Below are positions 44,947 through 53,331 of a DNA stretch of 64,000 nt, piece by piece. Location: positions 310,001-374,000 of the forward strand of contig NZ_JAINFJ010000003.1 in NCBI RefSeq assembly GCF_019966595.1. Direction: 5' to 3'. The position numbers were made by a program, and so were the translations under genes. The notes under the pieces are model-generated. The model was not told the DNA's origin, made no database searches, and saw only the letters and a program-made list of their open reading frames with translations. Numbering within the stretch: the stretch's first letter is position 1; each line of letters starts with the position of its first letter. The stretch comes from Oricola indica. GTDB taxonomy: Bacteria > Pseudomonadota > Alphaproteobacteria > Rhizobiales > Rhizobiaceae.

Positions 44947-46233
44947 ATGCCTTTCCTGCCCCGCGCCGTCTATCCGCTCATGATCGGTTCAGCCCTGCTG
45001 ATGTTCGCGGGCGGCGTGAACGGTCTGATCCTGCCGTTGCGCGGCAGCCAGGAGGGGTTTTCCTCCTTTGCGCTCGGCCTGCTCGGTACGGGATGGGCGA
45101 TGGGCTACATCCTGGGCTGCCTCGTCATGCCGCGAACCGTTGCCCGCGTCGGTCATATCCGTGCATTCGGCGCCATGACGGCACTCGCCGTGGTCTCGGT
45201 GCTGGCCTCGCTGCTCGTAATACAATCCTGGGCCTGGGTTCCCTTGCGCGGGGTCGCCGGATTCGCCTTCGCCGGTGCGGCGATGATCGTGGAAAGCTGG
45301 CTGAACGAGCGCGCCGAATCCGCCTCGCGCGGCAGGGTTTTCGGGCTTTACACGATGGTCAATCTCGCCGCGACGACGCTTGGCCAGCTTTCCCTGACGC
45401 TCGGACCGACATCGACCCATCTGTTCTTCGTGCTCGCCGCCATTTTCTATGCGCTCGCGCTGCTTCCAAGTGGGCTTTATGCCAGCCATCAGCCCAATCC
45501 GCTGGTCGGTGCATCGCTCGATCTGCCGACGCTCTGGCGCAACTCGCCCGTTGCCGTCGTCTCGGTCATCCTTGTCGGCGTTTCCAATTCGGCTTTCGGG
45601 ACACTCGGCGCCGTCTATGCCGACCGGATCGATCTCGATATCGCGACGATCGCCTTCTTCATGAGCCTCGCGATCCTCGCCGGCGCGGGCGCCCAGATTC
45701 CGATCGGCTACCTCTCCGACCGGATGGACCGCCGTCTCGTTCTCGTCGCGATTGCCGGCGTCGCATTTCTGGTCGACCTGTTCCTGATCGTCGTCCAGCC
45801 CTCCAGCGTGCCGATGGCGCTCGCCGCTTCGGCCGTGTTCGGCGCATGTATCTTCTCCATGTATCCGGTCATCGTCGCGCATGCGAACGACCACGCTCCG
45901 GAGAATTATTTCCTGCGTACGTCCGGCGGCCTGCTGCTGCTGTTCGGCGTCGGTTCGATCGCGGGTCCGCTGCTCGCCGGCGTGATCATGTCGGCAGCCG
46001 GCCCGTCGGGATTGTTCATCACGACGGCCCTGACCCATGTCACGCTGATTGGCTATGCGCTCTGGCGTATCCGCCAACGCGCTGCACCGACCCAGGAGAA
46101 CAAGACCGACTTCGTGCCGGTGACATCGGCGCGTTATTCGACGATGGAAACGGCTTCACTCGACCCTCGCGCCGAAGAAGAGGAGATAGAAGAGCAGCGT
46201 GTGGAGACGCCCACGGAAGACGAGAATGGCTAG
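44947..46233 (+). CDS. MFS transporter
   Basis: A 428-residue permease with 12 predicted helices. It has ALGLLGTGWAMGYILGCLVM, RGVAGFAFAGAAMIVESWLN (ESW-type motif of YcaD-like MFS), GRVFGLYTMVNLAATTLGQL and IPIGYLSDRMDRRLV (MFS motif A in the second half). The substrate is unknown. The C-terminus is a hydrophilic acidic tail (EEEEIEEQRVE). Its start lies 129 bases from the divergent acyltransferase gene. Confidence 0.92.
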   Translation: MPFLPRAVYPLMIGSALLMFAGGVNGLILPLRGSQEGFSSFALGLLGTGWAMGYILGCLVMPRTVARVGHIRAFGAMTALAVVSVLASLLVIQSWAWVPLRGVAGFAFAGAAMIVESWLNERAESASRGRVFGLYTMVNLAATTLGQLSLTLGPTSTHLFFVLAAIFYALALLPSGLYASHQPNPLVGASLDLPTLWRNSPVAVVSVILVGVSNSAFGTLGAVYADRIDLDIATIAFFMSLAILAGAGAQIPIGYLSDRMDRRLVLVAIAGVAFLVDLFLIVVQPSSVPMALAASAVFGACIFSMYPVIVAHANDHAPENYFLRTSGGLLLLFGVGSIAGPLLAGVIMSAAGPSGLFITTALTHVTLIGYALWRIRQRAAPTQENKTDFVPVTSARYSTMETASLDPRAEEEEIEEQRVETPTEDENG

Positions 46234-46469
46234 TCGTGCGAACAAACGTTCGCGCTGCCCGGAAACCACGGGTCGGAGCTTGCGTACTCTCCCTGCGCGC
46301 CACAGGGCATGTGAGCAGTGTGCGCAAGAGCACGGACAAGCCATAAATCCGCCGCGGCGCACTGTTTTTCGTTAAAATTGTGGGCTATACGCGCCATATT
46401 TTCAAAGGGCGGTAATACGGTGGGCAAGTCGGGCGATTCTGTTCGATGCTCTCTGCAGGGAGGTATTTG

Positions 46470-46499
46470 ATGAACAGGGCTGGGGTGGCTTCATGCTGA
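46470..46499 (+). CDS. Possible 9-codon leader (minicistron) before the ZorA-like gene
   Basis: A GGGAGG Shine-Dalgarno at 46458-46463 precedes ATG 46470, which reads MNRAGVASC and stops at TGA 46497-46499, overlapping the ATG of the large gene (ATGCTGA). The large gene has no strong ribosome-binding site of its own. Ribosomes finishing the leader could restart on it. This is a pattern only, with no evidence of expression. Confidence 0.4.
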   Translation: MNRAGVASC

Positions 46500-49400
46500 A
46501 TTGGACGATGAGTTCCGGCTTTGACATCGTGATCGTAATTCTCGCCATCGTGGCCGGCCTTGGGCTCACCGGGTGGATCGTCAGACGGGCCGCGCGTGAT
46601 GTCGATGACCTGGAAAAGGCCGCCTCCGTCATTCTGTCCGCCTCCCAGGAGGAATTGCCTCCCAGGGAAGCTTTTTCCGCCCAGTTCGAAACAGTTCATG
46701 AGAAGCTGAAGACAAACGATACGATCGGAAGGGCGTGGCAGCGCTTCTCATCGACGATCGTGCCTCTCGAAGCCGATGACGGCATCGAGAAGGAAAAGAC
46801 CCTGGTCTCGCGGTCCACATCCCCTGCCCGCTATTTCACGCTGGAAAGCCTCGGGCTCGAGAACACTTCCGTCAACATGGTACCGGCGGCCTTTTTGGCA
46901 GTCTTCGCGCTGATCGCCGGCGTGGGGCTGGCAGGCGCGCTTGGCGGCATCGCGGCAGCCTTCGCACCGGCCGGTGCGGATGCCGGCGTTTCCGGCGAAA
47001 TGATGCGCGCGGCAATCGGCAGCGCAGGGGTGAAGCTCTTCTTCATCGCCATCGTGATCGCGCTGTTCATGGCGCTCAGACTGGCCGTGTCATGGTCTCG
47101 CAACGCCAAGGCGAGCGCGGTCCAGCATTTTTGCGACGCCCTGCTCGACCGCATCTATTTCGAGAATGCCGAATCCGCCGGTACGAGACGGCAAGATGCG
47201 ATGCACTTTCAGACCAAGAGCCTGCAAAGGTTGGGCGAAAAGCTTGCGACGTCGATCGGCGGAACCACACGCGACGCCATTGTCGAAGGCTATATGGACG
47301 TGGTCTCGCGCATGGAAACACTGACCAAGCGCTACGACGATCTCGTCTCGGCGGCGCAAAAAGGCGCGAAGGAGGCGGTCACCAAGGCTTTCGACGAGTC
47401 CGTCGAAACCAGCGCCGATATCGTGGTCAAGCGGATGGAAGCGGTCGCAGAGCATCTGTCGGCCATTCCCGAGCGAATGGAGCAGGCATCGCGCTCACTC
47501 GAAACCGCCGGCGCGAATATCTCGTCGGAGCAGCAGCGCTTCGCCGCAGATCTCCAGGCGACCGCGAACCAGAGCGTCGCTTCGGCTGCGAGCGCGGTTG
47601 CCGGCAATGTCGAGGAAACCATCCGCGGCGTGTTGGCGGAGACCCACGAGGTGTCGGCCGCGGTTTCGGAACGCCTCGGACGTCTCCCGGACCGTATCGA
47701 AGAGGCCGCCCGTACATTCGAAACGGCGTCGAGCCAGATGATCGAAGTCCAGGGCACGGTCGCGGAAGAAACGCAGGCACGCACCAAGCAGGCCGTCGAG
47801 GCCGTGACGGGGATGATTTCCGATGCCGTGGGTGAAGTCGCGAAAGCGGTTGACGAAACCATCGCGAATTCGCTGCTGCAGACGACGCAGACGTTGCGCG
47901 CCGTCGGCGAGGACATGACGCTGTTGCCCGACCGGCTTTCCGGTGTTGCACGGGCACTCGAACAATCCAGCGACCGCATCGCCGAAACGCACGCCCAGAT
48001 CCTTGCGGACCTCAAGATGGGTGCGCGCGAGATGACAACGACAGCGGCCGACACGATCATCGAGCGGGTCAACGAGAACACGACCGGGTTTATAGACAAA
48101 CTCTACGAGGCAAACGACGCGTTCGAAGCCCGCACGGAATCGCTTTCCGGCCTGTTCGCCGCTATCGAGCGGACCAGCGACCAGATCGCGCAAACCCATG
48201 CCCAAACGCTTGCCGACTTCAAGACCAGCGCCAGCGAGATCACCGCTGTTACCGCCGACGCCATCGCCGCGCGCGTCAATGAAAACACGGATACATTCGT
48301 CCAGAGACTGAACGAGTCCAATGACGCGTTCGAGGCGCGCGCCGAACGGCTATCCAGCCTGTTCGCCGCTATCGAGCGCACCAGCGACCAGATCGCGCAA
48401 ACCCATGCCCGGACGATTGCTGACTTCAAGACCAGCGCCAGCGAGATCACCGCGGTGACGGCCGACGCCATCGCCGCGCGCGTCAATGAAAACACGGATA
48501 CATTCGTTCAGAGACTGAACGAGTCCAATGACGCGTTCGAGGCGCGCGCAGAACGGCTATCCGGACTCTATTCGACGCTGGAGCAGGCCAACGAACGGAT
48601 CGCGGAAACGCACACCCGTTTCATGGCGCAGATGCAGCAATCAACGCGCGACATGACAGCCGCAACGGCCCAATCGGTGTCGCGCCATATCAACGAGAAC
48701 ACGGAAGCCTTCCTCGCGAAGCTCAACGAATCCAATACCGTGTTCGAGGAACGGGCCCAGGCGCTCACCGGGCTTTTCGCGACCCTTCAAACGGCCAGCG
48801 ACAGGATCGCGGCGACGCATACGGGCTTCATGGAGCGCATGCATGAGGGCGCGCGCGAACTGACCGAGGCCACTGCCGATACGCTTGCACGTCATGTCAA
48901 CGAGAACACGCTCGGCTTTGTCGACAAGCTCAATGAATCCAACGCCGCCTTCGAGGAACGCGCACAGGCGCTGACGGGGCTGTTCGCGACGCTTCAGAAG
49001 GCCAGCGACCGGATTGCCGAAACCCATACGCGCTTCATGGGTGAAATGCAGGACAGCACCCGCGACGTCATCGCGAAGACGACGAGCACGATCGCAGCCG
49101 AAATCCAGAAAAACACCGCGGATGTGGTTTCGCGGCTGCGCGAATCCGACGATTTCTTCGCATCGCGCGTCGAGGCGCTGGCATCGGTGCTGCCGCAGAT
49201 CGATCAGACCGGGCGGGCGCTTGCGGAAATCATGGAGCGGGTCTCGGCTGAAAACGGGCGCGTCGGCGTAGAATTGACGGAACTGGCCGGCTCGCTGCGG
49301 GACGCGACGGGCAGTATCAAGCAGTCCGCAGACCGGTTCTCGAACAACCTGCTCGAGGTCCAGCAGTCGCTCGACGATTTCCAGAAGCTCTCGAAAGAGA

Positions 49401-49684
49401 CCGTCGAAACGGTTGGCACGTCGCAGCGGAACTTCAAGGAATCCATCGGCATGCAGGCCGAGCTCTGGCAGCGCCATGTCGAGCGGTTCGACGATGTCGA
49501 CCGGAAACTCGGCGACGTCTTTGCCGAAATGGCTTCGCAGATCGATACGCAGACACGGCTGATGCGCGACCAGGTGGCTGAAATGGACAGTTCACTGGCT
49601 ACGGCCGTGACACATCTCGGCGAACTCGTGGAAGAGCTCAACGAAACGCGTTCGGGCTCGGGTGAAACCGGGACCTATCGCTGA
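46493..49684 (+). CDS. ZorA-like membrane protein with long repeat tail
   Basis: The 1063-residue protein has three membrane helices (about 10-30, 129-152 and 177-200). Helices 2-3 resemble the ZorA/MotA-type motor core: NMVPAAFLAVFALIAGVGLA, GSAGVKLFFIAIVIALFMAL, then VQHFCDALLDRIYF, a pattern I associate with ZorA. The rest is a long helical tail with six 69-residue repeats (489-902). ZorA with ZorB forms a proton-driven anti-phage motor in Zorya defence. Here no ZorB (MotB/OmpA-like) or ZorD helicase is next door; instead an EH-signature-like gene follows 2 bases later. The family call rests on my pattern matching. Confidence 0.65.
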   Translation: MLNWTMSSGFDIVIVILAIVAGLGLTGWIVRRAARDVDDLEKAASVILSASQEELPPREAFSAQFETVHEKLKTNDTIGRAWQRFSSTIVPLEADDGIEKEKTLVSRSTSPARYFTLESLGLENTSVNMVPAAFLAVFALIAGVGLAGALGGIAAAFAPAGADAGVSGEMMRAAIGSAGVKLFFIAIVIALFMALRLAVSWSRNAKASAVQHFCDALLDRIYFENAESAGTRRQDAMHFQTKSLQRLGEKLATSIGGTTRDAIVEGYMDVVSRMETLTKRYDDLVSAAQKGAKEAVTKAFDESVETSADIVVKRMEAVAEHLSAIPERMEQASRSLETAGANISSEQQRFAADLQATANQSVASAASAVAGNVEETIRGVLAETHEVSAAVSERLGRLPDRIEEAARTFETASSQMIEVQGTVAEETQARTKQAVEAVTGMISDAVGEVAKAVDETIANSLLQTTQTLRAVGEDMTLLPDRLSGVARALEQSSDRIAETHAQILADLKMGAREMTTTAADTIIERVNENTTGFIDKLYEANDAFEARTESLSGLFAAIERTSDQIAQTHAQTLADFKTSASEITAVTADAIAARVNENTDTFVQRLNESNDAFEARAERLSSLFAAIERTSDQIAQTHARTIADFKTSASEITAVTADAIAARVNENTDTFVQRLNESNDAFEARAERLSGLYSTLEQANERIAETHTRFMAQMQQSTRDMTAATAQSVSRHINENTEAFLAKLNESNTVFEERAQALTGLFATLQTASDRIAATHTGFMERMHEGARELTEATADTLARHVNENTLGFVDKLNESNAAFEERAQALTGLFATLQKASDRIAETHTRFMGEMQDSTRDVIAKTTSTIAAEIQKNTADVVSRLRESDDFFASRVEALASVLPQIDQTGRALAEIMERVSAENGRVGVELTELAGSLRDATGSIKQSADRFSNNLLEVQQSLDDFQKLSKETVETVGTSQRNFKESIGMQAELWQRHVERFDDVDRKLGDVFAEMASQIDTQTRLMRDQVAEMDSSLATAVTHLGELVEELNETRSGSGETGTYR
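47957..49198 (+). repeat. Six tandem 207-base coding repeats in the ZorA-like tail
   Basis: Units start at 47957, 48164, 48371, 48578, 48785 and 48992. Each encodes 69 residues with landmarks (S)DxIAxTHxxx, VNENTxxFVxxLNESN and FEARAExLxxLFA. Copies 2 and 3 are nearly identical, with about ten substitutions over the first ~190 bases, mostly third-position, so they arose by recent duplication. The last unit is degenerate. All units stay in frame. Confidence 0.92.
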
Positions 49685-49686
49685 CC

Positions 49687-50604
49687 ATGGCCAACTTCAC
49701 CGGACTGAGAGAGCGGCTGGATAAACACCTCGGCCAGACAGTGCCGGGAGGGCAAACAGCGGCTCCCATTCCCGGTCGTGTGAAGGATGTGGCCAAGAGA
49801 TGGGCGCGCAAGCGTGCGGCAGCCCGCATTCCCGAGCAGGGCCGCAGGCGGCGCCTGCGCGAGACGGCGCGGAAACTCAAGGAAGGACTGGGCGCGGAAA
49901 TTCCGCTGAGCGACATCCGGCTTTCCCTGTTTCACATGCGTGACGAGGACGCCTTCACGTCGAGTACCATTGCGCGGCACCGGCTTGTCACCGAAGCGAT
50001 GACGCGGCCGGGCAAGACACCCGTCAACGTCCTCTTCAACGCCTTCTTCCATATTTTCGAACGGGGCAGCCCCGAGACCGATCGGATCTACCAGCACCTG
50101 CGCAAGAACCAGGCGTCGCTGCGGATCAGTTCGCGGGAGTTCGTGGAGAAAACGAAGTTTTTCGACGGCGGTTATGGTCTGGACACAATCATCGACAGTG
50201 TCGATCTGAGGAACCCCGTTCGTTCGCTTGCCCGCTCGGGCCTTAAAGACGACGTGCAGGATTCATTGTACGGACTGGCGATCAAATGCGCCCTGATCGA
50301 ACGGACGCTCGCGCATGTCGATCTCGACGCACAGCCGCTCAAGACCATTCTGGGATGGATCGAACTGGGCGAACGCAGGCGCCCGGACCTTGAATGCGCC
50401 TATTACGAAATCCTGCTTTCGCCTTTCGTCGCCCGAGACCCCTCGCCCGATGTGAAGAGAACGATCAGCCGTTTCCTGCTCGGCCATTTCGGCGACCCGC
50501 GTTCGGTCTCGTGGCCGAAACTGAGAGAGGATACGGGTCGCCTCAAGCGGGACGCTTGCATGAGCGTAATGGTTCGGTGGCTCGACACGGGAATCCTGCG
50601 CTAG
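49687..50604 (+). CDS. EH-signature-like protein (ZorC-like candidate)
   Basis: The 305-residue protein is basic near the N-terminus (35-65, RKRAAARIP, QGRRRRLRE) and otherwise soluble. The C-terminal third has the arrangement I associate with the EH_Signature domain of ZorC: Glu residues in DLECAYYEILLSPFV (236 and 241), a His in FLLGHFGDPRSVSW (267), the GDPR-W motif, and the closing MVRWLDTGIL. In Zorya, ZorC helps degrade invading DNA with ZorD. It starts 2 bases after the ZorA-like gene, so the two are one operon. The domain call needs a profile search. Confidence 0.55.
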   Translation: MANFTGLRERLDKHLGQTVPGGQTAAPIPGRVKDVAKRWARKRAAARIPEQGRRRRLRETARKLKEGLGAEIPLSDIRLSLFHMRDEDAFTSSTIARHRLVTEAMTRPGKTPVNVLFNAFFHIFERGSPETDRIYQHLRKNQASLRISSREFVEKTKFFDGGYGLDTIIDSVDLRNPVRSLARSGLKDDVQDSLYGLAIKCALIERTLAHVDLDAQPLKTILGWIELGERRRPDLECAYYEILLSPFVARDPSPDVKRTISRFLLGHFGDPRSVSWPKLREDTGRLKRDACMSVMVRWLDTGILR

Positions 50605-50628: not shown

Positions 50629-53331
50629 CTAGATGGGCCGGTCCGGCGGAATCGGCACAATGTCCGGGATAATCGGGCGTCCGGGCTCCGCGTCAGCGAC
50701 GGCTGCAGTTTCAGGCACCTCTTCAGCTGACGTATCCGCGGGCGCTTCGGAAGGCGCAATGGCGAGTTCGGGTTCTGCAGCCGGCTGCTCTGCCGGTGCG
50801 GGCGCAGGTTCCGGCGCAGCAGCTTGAACCGCGGCTTCTTCGCCCCAGGCTTCAGTGGCCGAACGGAACACCTCGCCGCCCGTCGCGCCGGTCACGAGAC
50901 GCAGTGTCGAACGCCGTCCGCTGAAATAGACAAACGGTATCTCGATCAGATCGGGATTGCTCATCAAGCTGGCGTGCAATTCGCGCGCCGCGGGAACATC
51001 CGCGAGAGCGAACAGGAAGATATTGTCGGCGATCTTGACGATGGAACCCACCAGAGGCTGGCTCCGGTCCTGCCCGCTCTGTACGAAGGTAATGCCTTCG
51101 ACAGAAGAAATCTCGCTGCTGGAAACACTGTCAGCCGGCGCGAAGACCAGTTCAAACAGGTGCGAAGCTGGTAGCGTTTCATCGAGATTGCGCCGCAAGG
51201 TCAGCGTCGCGCGCAGGCCCTCGCCCGGTATCGTGATCTCGCCGCGAATGGCAGGCTCCGCCGCAGCACCGGGACTCGGCGCTGACTGGATCAACGACCA
51301 GACGACATTGCCGGTGGCAACCGGTTGCTGCCCACCCGAGGTGGCGAACAGGAACGCCTTCTCGCCATCGATGGCGGCCACCGCCGGTTCGGCGGCAGGT
51401 TGTTCCGCGGTCTCTTCCTGTGCGACCGCAGCGGCTTCCGCCGTGTCCGTTTCGGAAACTGTTTCAGTTTCAGCGACTTGCGTCCCGGCGGATTCGTCGG
51501 CGAGCGCCGGTTCTCCCACCGCATCGCCTTCGCCGGCATCCGTCGTTGCGCTGCGCAATGAATCGGAGGATTCACCGGCAAGCCCGGCGACAAACTCGAC
51601 GACCCATCCGGCAGTGGACTTGGCCTTCGCCGCATAGCGCGACGTCATGTCGGGAAGCGCAAAGGCGGTCGCGATCACTCCTACGATCAGCAAGACCAGC
51701 AATATGGCAAACATCCGGCCCGACCCGCCACGTCGGCGGGGCCTGTCGTCTTTCGCACGGACCTGCTGGGCAGCTACCGGACCGGCCGGTTCATCCATCG
51801 CGAATTCCTGATCGAAGGCATCTTCCGGCAATTCGAAGGAATCATCCATCGCCCAACGATCGACCTCCGCGGGCGCGGGGTTCGCGCGGCCGTGATCGGC
51901 GTAGTTCTCATCCGTATCATCGTCGTCATACTCGACGCGTTCACGACGTGCGGGGCGCTGCGGTTTCTTCGCCGGCTTGCTGCGAATCTGGTGCCGGGAG
52001 GTGTCCGCAGCGATCAGATCCTGTACGGCCTCCTCGACTTCATCGTCTATCGAGCGCGGTGCAACGAGGTCTTCCTCGGGAAAATCGAAGTCCAGTTCTA
52101 TGTCGTCTTCGGGAACAGTGAGTTCCTGGACGGCTTCCTCGACCTCGTCGGCAATCGTGCGTTCCAGATCGAATTTCTCGGGCATTGGCGGCGCGGCCGG
52201 GCGCACCGGTTTCTCGACCTTGCGAACCTGTGGCTGCTCGTCATCCGCGGACCAGATATCTTCCAGTTCACTGATGAAGCCGCCCTTATCGGCACTGTCA
52301 GTTGCGGCGTCTGTATCGACGGCCTTGGACGACTGTTCCGACTCGACCTCGCGAATCGCCTGGTTGAGCCTTTCGATATGCCCGTGAACGGTATCGAAGT
52401 CCGGTTGGGGCGACAAAGCCTTGAGATAGCGGACCAACGCGTTGCGTGCTCTGCGATAGATGATCTCGCGCGTCGCCGAGTCGCGCATGTCCTCATTGCT
52501 GACAGCCTTGAGCAGCATGAGTTTGACGTCGAATTCCGGCTTCTCCGACTTCGTTTGCGCTACACCGGCGGGCTCCGGCGCCGATTCAGGTTGCGGAGCG
52601 GGTTCGGGTTGTGGAGCCGGTTCAGGTTGCGGAGCTGCAGCCGTCTGCTCCTGCTTCGGTTCTTCAACGGGTTCCGGATCCGGCGTCGCAGCCGATTTTG
52701 TTTGCTGCTCTTCCTCAGGCGTGATCGGAAGCGCCAATTCGGCCGTCAATGCGGACTGGAATTCCGCAAGCGGATCGCTTTCGCCGGCTTCCACCTTGAG
52801 AGCCTGGCTGGCGGAGCCGCCGATCGCGGTCGTGCGCTGCGGCGTGTATTGCGGCTTTTCGTTGGTTGTGTTCGCGACCGGCGCCTCGGGTGCCGATGGT
52901 GTCTTCGCGACTTCGGGATGCGGCGCAGACGGGGCCGTATCGGCCGGCGTCGGCTCATTCGCGCTGGCGGCGACAACAGGCTCCCTGCCGGCGGGCTCCG
53001 GATTCTTTCGGATAATCGGCGTTACGTTGCTTTCCGGCGTATAGGCCGGTTTTACAGCGGAAGGCTCGGGTCGTGCAGGTGGTTCCGGCTGTGCGGCGGG
53101 CGCAGGCGGCGCCGGTTTCGCCGGGACCATGAGTTGCTCCGCCTCAAGGTCCAGAATGGCGTTTTCCAGCTCCTCCATCGTGTCGTAAATTTCGGCTTCG
53201 CCGGCCGAACGGGCGTCGAGTTGGCGCCTTATCGTCTTGCGCACTTTCTCATAGGCCGATGCCCGCGACAGCGGGGTATTTTCAGAAAGCCCCTGAATAG
53301 CGACGCGAATGTAATTGGCAAAATCCGACAC
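50629..53331 (-). CDS. Large transmembrane protein with duplicated N-terminal helical module, unknown function
   Basis: The 900-residue protein has two related helical modules: near 1-65 (ANYIRVAIQGLSENTPLS, YEKVRKTIRRQLDAR, MEELENAILDLEAEQL) and again near 275-335 (LKAVSNEDMRDSATREII, HIERLNQAIREVESEQ). A Pro/Ala/Glu-rich disordered middle and one membrane helix (about 543-563, MFAILLVLLIVGVIATAFAL) follow. The C-terminal globular region (about 650-835) contains SIVKIADNIFLFALADVPAA. I do not recognise a family. Orientation suggests the first 540 residues are cytoplasmic and the last part periplasmic. It converges on the ZorC-like gene, 24 bases away. Confidence 0.6.
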   Translation of the reverse strand: MSDFANYIRVAIQGLSENTPLSRASAYEKVRKTIRRQLDARSAGEAEIYDTMEELENAILDLEAEQLMVPAKPAPPAPAAQPEPPARPEPSAVKPAYTPESNVTPIIRKNPEPAGREPVVAASANEPTPADTAPSAPHPEVAKTPSAPEAPVANTTNEKPQYTPQRTTAIGGSASQALKVEAGESDPLAEFQSALTAELALPITPEEEQQTKSAATPDPEPVEEPKQEQTAAAPQPEPAPQPEPAPQPESAPEPAGVAQTKSEKPEFDVKLMLLKAVSNEDMRDSATREIIYRRARNALVRYLKALSPQPDFDTVHGHIERLNQAIREVESEQSSKAVDTDAATDSADKGGFISELEDIWSADDEQPQVRKVEKPVRPAAPPMPEKFDLERTIADEVEEAVQELTVPEDDIELDFDFPEEDLVAPRSIDDEVEEAVQDLIAADTSRHQIRSKPAKKPQRPARRERVEYDDDDTDENYADHGRANPAPAEVDRWAMDDSFELPEDAFDQEFAMDEPAGPVAAQQVRAKDDRPRRRGGSGRMFAILLVLLIVGVIATAFALPDMTSRYAAKAKSTAGWVVEFVAGLAGESSDSLRSATTDAGEGDAVGEPALADESAGTQVAETETVSETDTAEAAAVAQEETAEQPAAEPAVAAIDGEKAFLFATSGGQQPVATGNVVWSLIQSAPSPGAAAEPAIRGEITIPGEGLRATLTLRRNLDETLPASHLFELVFAPADSVSSSEISSVEGITFVQSGQDRSQPLVGSIVKIADNIFLFALADVPAARELHASLMSNPDLIEIPFVYFSGRRSTLRLVTGATGGEVFRSATEAWGEEAAVQAAAPEPAPAPAEQPAAEPELAIAPSEAPADTSAEEVPETAAVADAEPGRPIIPDIVPIPPDRPI

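Follow-up and report, generated by a model that had tools for sequence, protein, structure and literature searches.

A Zorya-derived gene pair in Oricola that joins a ZorA-like membrane protein to the N-terminal part of ZorC

The Zorya system is regarded as a motor, powered by ion flow, that recruits effectors, and specific E and H residues are required in ZorC. According to the portion of the Zorya study used here, every described Zorya type has ZorA together with ZorB, defence requires ion flow, the peptidoglycan-binding domain of ZorB, the tail extension of ZorA and the effectors, and in ZorAB structures a ring of ZorA Ser/Thr residues packs against a ZorB Asp (PMC11890865). Here, we describe two adjacent genes, A and C, in a 64,000-nucleotide stretch of DNA from the marine bacterium Oricola indica (contig NZ_JAINFJ010000003.1, positions 310,001 to 374,000; hereafter the window). 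The pair resembles Zorya type I in the membrane core and tail of ZorA, the N-terminal part of ZorC, and the position of zorA upstream of zorC on the same strand. Unlike type I, no ZorB and no ZorD was found, ZorC is without its E/H half, the channel Thr and Ser are replaced, the tail is longer and built of repeats, and constraint has shifted from the channel to the tail. The pair is of type I Zorya descent, and we consider it probable, if only modestly so, that it lost its motor and was reused as a fixed rod scaffold holding the N-terminal part of ZorC. The pair is filed as a new variant derived from Zorya rather than as a Zorya member. In titles and abstract openings from the open-licence PMC literature, we saw nothing that describes a ZorA without ZorB and channel residues together with a ZorC that lacks the EH half, and nothing joining Oricola and Zorya. 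The two genes, as open reading frames (ORFs), are as follows.

46493-49684, + strand: gene A, ZorA-derived membrane protein with a long coiled-coil tail, 1063 amino acids (aa) (ORF call, profiles, model)
49687-50604, + strand: gene C, N-terminal part of ZorC without the E/H half, 305 aa (ORF call, profiles, alignment)

The kinship of both proteins was established with profile searches. The N-terminal 290 aa of A alone matched PADLOC ZorA1 at E 7e-13 and the C-terminal 244 aa at E 5e-17, with parts of the tail also weakly matching other coiled-coil families. As this non-repetitive 290-aa core matches ZorA by itself in all four species that carry the pair, we rejected A as a generic coiled coil. 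Gene C matched PADLOC ZorC1 at E 4e-12 and Pfam EH_Signature at 29.7 bits (cut-off 27.5), which the orthologue in genome G001 also passed (28.5). Profile-profile comparison with the Zorya counterparts gave probabilities of 98.6 and 98.8 for the pair; against a profile of nine canonical ZorC proteins, C scored 98.6, nearly all of it corresponding to positions 5-305 of 467. When 20 Zorya loci were searched in the reverse direction with profiles built from the four orthologues, the ZorA ORF was recovered in 17, with E values no higher than 5e-5, and the ZorC ORF in 15, with E values no higher than 0.05. The best PDB matches of a template-free structure model of A were ZorA. Profile A2 searched against PDB gave nothing at E 0.001, and a search for a solved ZorC gave nothing worth keeping for query A1 (best E 0.22) and none for canonical ZorC at E 0.1. 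The original prediction, made from the window alone, had proposed two + strand genes 2 bases apart encoding relatives of ZorA and ZorC, and this was borne out: the spacing is 2 bases, and the hidden Markov models place the first protein with ZorA and the second with EH_Signature.

We then compared A with 25 other ZorA proteins, of which 20 come from the order (including both of an EH-less triplet described below), four from the family and one from the class. The transmembrane (TM) helices and the two columns discussed here are listed below; AF2 stands for the AlphaFold2 model.

46514-46585, + strand: TM helix 1, about aa 8-31 (hydropathy; AF2 helix 8-49)
46865-46960, + strand: TM helix 2, aa 125-156 (AF2 model, alignment, hydropathy)
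46916-46918, + strand: codon of A142 in TM2, a column that is Thr in 25 of 25 other ZorA (alignment)
47006-47101, + strand: TM helix 3, about aa 172-203 (AF2 model, alignment, hydropathy)
47045-47047, + strand: codon of I185 in TM3, a column that is Ser in 25 of 25 other ZorA (alignment)

By hydropathy, three hydrophobic helices lie within the first 205 aa of A. The invariant Thr column of TM2 is Ala in each of the four Oricola orthologues, and the invariant Ser column of TM3 is occupied by Ile, Phe, Leu and Met. The EFxET motif has likewise lost its two Glu residues in all four (E in 19 and 21 of the 25 others). Both columns were mapped onto the ZorA Ser/Thr ring through the alignment, without a residue number from the part of PMC11890865 used here. 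These comparisons strongly indicate that gene A retains the three-helix ZorA membrane core with non-polar residues at the ion-path Thr and Ser positions; as read from the sequence, the motor would be disabled. The ZorA-like helices of the original prediction therefore stand in number and fold, but lack the conserved polar residues of ZorA. Unlike MotA, ExbB and TolQ subunits, A has no polar channel residues, no adjacent TolR/ExbD/MotB-like gene and a huge tail. It offers an example of an ion-motor subunit of the MotA/TolQ type whose ion path has apparently been lost.

A ZorB profile matched in all 25 loci of the comparison ZorA proteins and in none of the four Oricola loci. When the four genomes were searched, the ZorB query met in each only the OmpA part of one small protein (within residues 155-268), with the TM part unmatched. 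The window's genome has seven OmpA-domain places, none with a ZorB start; context and ORF reading assign them to Pal, MotB, a lipoprotein, a MotA/OmpA-like pair and three larger proteins. A small hidden ZorB was sought by eye among + strand stop-to-stop stretches of at least 20 aa in 46234-46492, and none carried the ZorB TM motif. The ZorD query gave no match beside the pair in the four Oricola loci and none in the four whole genomes, while recovering ZorD in 15 of 20 order loci and in all four family loci (one being the source of the query). It was likewise not found beside complete zorABC at loci L057 and L058, at the EH-less loci L061 and L062, or at L059, where a contig end truncates the locus. 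Since L057 and L058 have a complete zorABC, the absence of ZorD alone is not peculiar to the pair. The absence of ZorB is thus strengthened by the locus controls and that of ZorD is less telling, and the predicted lack of both partners alongside the pair extends to the genome, where neither was recovered. At L057 and L058, ZorC is full-length and the search for ZorD covered 13-15 kilobases of each locus. The window's genome also has a further pair, at L019:2857-4928, made up of a MotA-like protein of 345 aa and an OmpA-like one of 343 aa; it shows stator-like features and is unlinked to A and C.

By alignment, gene C is the first two thirds of ZorC, with the E/H-bearing half absent. All four C orthologues end near position 300 of about 430-467 in ZorC profiles, directly after GDPR..W..RWL, and the complete ZorC proteins in the alignment carry about 150 aa more, including an EWS motif and a later conserved His.

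50491-50502, + strand: GDPR motif, aa 269-272, near the C terminus of C (alignment)

EWS[HQF].G or EGSH is present in 19 of the 25 rows of the tree set, the remaining six being those of L061, L062 and the four Oricola genomes. The motif varies, as the full-length ZorC proteins of L071 and L077 in a wider set are also unmatched and the His is replaced in three. A tblastn search of the loci for the missing half returned a best E of 0.18, with scattered matches at E 0.18-0.94, two of them inside gene C. Because C ends before the half carrying the E/H signature, only the GDPR..W part of the predicted GDPR-W and E/H arrangement is present.

An EH-less ZorC also occurs at L061:878-4821 and L062:1736-5676, in two genomes from a different family within the order, where ZorA, ZorB and a 304-aa ZorC form an operon followed by an MFS-like gene. 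This triplet shares with the Oricola pair the end point of ZorC, at about profile position 305 of 467, and the lack of a neighbouring ZorD in our searches, and unlike the pair it retains ZorB and the channel Thr and Ser. By phylogeny, both its ZorA and its ZorC cluster with the canonical system L083, so that the E/H half was apparently lost separately in this lineage. Trees were built from 25 rows each for the N-terminal parts of ZorC and of ZorA. In both, Oricola is a single clade (100/100), the EH-less triplet from genomes G443 and G270 clusters with canonical G756 (100/98 and 99/99), and a supported branch of the ZorC tree (97/96) splits it from Oricola. The Oricola branch in the ZorA tree measures 3.3 changes per site, some other branches are long, and its exact placement is unsure. 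Two separate losses of the E/H half, with a common boundary, seem to have taken place, which supports a likely domain boundary in ZorC at this point.

The relevant segments of the tail of A are given here.

47108-47347, + strand: tail root, aa 206-285, best conserved of four N-terminal stretches when the four orthologues are aligned (alignment)
48105-48562, + strand: clearest tandem copies of the 207-bp (69-aa) tail repeat (repeat search)
49202-49681, + strand: tip of the tail, final 160 aa; conserved in the orthologues, and aligned with the ends of ZorA profiles (PADLOC ZorA1, alignment)

The very long tail that had been noted for the first protein is indeed a long helical tail, and its tip matches PADLOC ZorA1 over positions 454-679 of 700. 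The four A proteins measure 845, 988, 1063 and 1194 aa (with an assumed start for the longest), compared with 617-749 in other ZorA. Three of the four contain the 69-aa repeat, with lag-69 self-identity of 41 percent in the window's tail and 31 and 33 percent in two others, compared with 15 percent in G001. Among other ZorA proteins, TM2-TM3 is more conserved than the next 80 residues in 293 of 300 pairs, and in 117 of the 118 pairs of comparable overall identity. The order is reversed in all six Oricola pairs, where TM2-TM3 is the less conserved stretch. Similarly, the last 160 aa have a mean identity of 63.5 percent among Oricola A proteins, against 47.4 percent for TM2-TM3, whereas in other ZorA the values are 27.4 and 48.2 percent. 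Constraint has shifted away from TM2-TM3 and now falls on the tail, at its root and its tip.

Oricola is placed in the Ahrensiaceae, Hyphomicrobiales. The pair is present in four of six genus genomes (Oricola and kin), and the C query matched four of 151 relatives, all of that genus; the pair is therefore genus-restricted and patchy rather than core in all relatives. ZorABCD was found in four other genera of the family. A query from the four-row alignment met four of 397 order genomes, the window's own and three that have zorB and full-length zorC. A wider alignment query met nine of 385 class genomes: the window's own, seven with ZorB and a ZorC of 406-500 aa in open frame, and G813, a match rejected as chance since this genome is without any ZorA, ZorB or ZorC match. 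No match to the pair was obtained in plasmids or phages, and none was confirmed in viral contigs. All four orthologous pairs are intact ORFs, with the other carriers 47-73 percent identical to the window's, and differences fall at codon positions in the order 3 > 1 > 2 in all pairs. The ratio of nonsynonymous to synonymous substitution (dN/dS), a rough measure here, was 0.15-0.50 for whole A and 0.16-0.54 for C. As a separate observation, the ZorA match at Zorya locus L084 covers only about 304 aa and the ZorC match there extends across two ORFs, and the locus may be interrupted.

Based on these results, we propose that zorB, zorD and the E/H-bearing half of zorC disappeared from an ancestral type I Zorya operon, and that selection would have retained what was left. 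A should neither conduct ions nor rotate, because the ion-path Thr and Ser are non-polar here and there is no ZorB to provide the Asp or the peptidoglycan anchor. It would assemble in the inner membrane, probably as a pentamer by analogy with ZorA, and form a fixed platform carrying a coiled-coil rod longer than that of ZorA and expanded by the 69-aa repeats. C may bind this rod, most likely near the conserved tip, and would act as an adaptor rather than an effector, as it corresponds to ZorC minus the effector-like half. The complex would be a static, membrane-tethered scaffold reaching into the cytoplasm, which either holds a further partner near the envelope or is a reduced defence or decoy module. 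It is tempting to speculate that a rotary defence motor became a stationary anchored rod whose tail grew by repeats, with the N-terminal part of ZorC as a tip-bound adaptor, working without motor, EH half or nuclease; to this fuller version we give slightly less than an even chance. The motor loss is read from sequence and the scaffold role is inferred. Here, the motor and the effector half of Zorya appear to have been discarded, and selection on the ZorA tail and the N-terminal part of ZorC points to these as a separable unit. The proposal predicts that the N-terminal part of ZorC is a tail-binding module, and makes the pair a natural test of which Zorya part contacts which.

Several observations weigh against this proposal. 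The pair occurs in four genomes only, and of the three named carriers, Ahrensia sp. SAT55, Oricola sp. HH_bin22 and Oricola nitratireducens NBU1457, the first two are metagenome-assembled genomes. The proportion of synonymous differences (pS 0.53-0.72) is near saturation, so that dN/dS is rough, and for the first 290 codons of A it reaches 0.18-0.62. NCBIfam ZorA_1 gives A 117 bits against a cut-off of 190, Pfam MotA_ExbB yields no match to A, and the C proteins of G003 (25.3 bits) and G005 (24.1 bits) fall under the EH_Signature cut-off. Structural comparison, which agreed with ZorA for A, gave no PDB fold match at E 0.001 for the model of C (predicted local distance difference test score, pLDDT, 68). 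Finally, a distant and very diverged ZorB may exist.

The foremost alternative, in our judgement unlikely, is a reduced but working anti-phage system in which A and C still serve as membrane sensors of infection and work together with a nuclease or host factor encoded elsewhere in the genome. Both proteins descend from a defence system, and the patchy presence of the pair and its other locus in G001 are often seen with defence genes. However, most of the parts that Zorya defence needs, as listed in the portion of PMC11890865 used here, are missing or altered, and no integrase or defence gene occurs among the eight window neighbours scanned with Pfam or the two scanned with PADLOC, to which the scan was limited. 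The pair could also be a scaffold for the cell envelope or for polarity, in the manner of the growth pole ring protein (GPR) of Agrobacterium, the ZorA core being a mere membrane anchor, and we regard this too as improbable. Agrobacterium belongs to the Hyphomicrobiales, as does Oricola. The tail of A resembles apolipoprotein-type helices (Pfam Apolipoprotein 30.3 bits, under the cut-off of 90), and GPR is likewise a long apolipoprotein-like helical protein, but coiled coils look alike through composition and GPR is a different and larger protein of 2,115 aa; this comparison is by description only, and the part of that description used here does not mention a ZorA core (PMC8262873). The absence of the pair from two of six genus genomes also speaks against such a role. 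Another role or a much reduced defence module is what is left of the options in the original prediction. The motor/effector pair it had also offered is unlikely, with Thr and Ser gone in all four orthologues and neither ZorB nor the EH half present.

A third option in the original prediction, a decaying Zorya remnant left after the loss of zorB and zorD, would account for the missing partners, the truncated ZorC, the lost channel residues and the two genus genomes without the pair. We consider decay quite unlikely, because the ORFs are intact and dN/dS lies below 1 (0.15-0.54), and the pair appears to be under selection. The divergence of the four intact pairs with a third-position excess, the common end point of C and the better conservation of tail root and tip than of the former channel argue in the same direction. 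That the pair is not related to Zorya at all, A being a coiled-coil membrane protein of a generic kind and C an unrelated helical neighbour, is hardly credible. Long coiled coils do match falsely, as illustrated by ORFs of 1593-2171 aa in six genomes that match the ZorA profile at E 6e-10 to 1e-8, but the match of the non-repetitive core in all four species, ZorA as the top structural matches of the predicted model of A, and a neighbour that is independently a ZorC relative are against it. These large ORFs match through their tails alone; they are a trap for Zorya annotation and possibly GPR-like proteins.

The surroundings of the pair agree with the predicted MFS gene upstream and unrelated convergent gene downstream.

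44947-46233: upstream MFS transporter gene (Pfam MFS_1 6e-41)
50629-53331, - strand: downstream convergent gene (P0003), without a family match worth keeping

The junction of A and C is a 2-bp gap in two genomes and a 4-bp overlap in the other two (two starts assumed), and C is probably translationally coupled to A. Their G+C contents (0.617 and 0.612) are at the level of the window, and the third-position values (0.77 and 0.74) are slightly under the 0.82 of the AcrB-type gene. A scan for promoters and terminators gave nothing convincing. The convergent gene ends 24 bases past the stop of gene C, and beyond it lie HlyD- and AcrB-type efflux genes. In the window's genome (G000), G003 and G005, the pair adjoins these same convergent and efflux genes. 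P0003 was considered as a partner, as it accompanies the pair in three genomes, but it was not counted as part of the system because its G001 orthologue sits with the efflux genes at a locus without the pair, which lies elsewhere in that genome. At the G001 locus (L007:11141-15067), three ORFs downstream of the pair have no Pfam match at E 0.01. The P0003 product is proline-rich with apparently a single TM segment, and its C-terminal part has matches in all six genus genomes examined.

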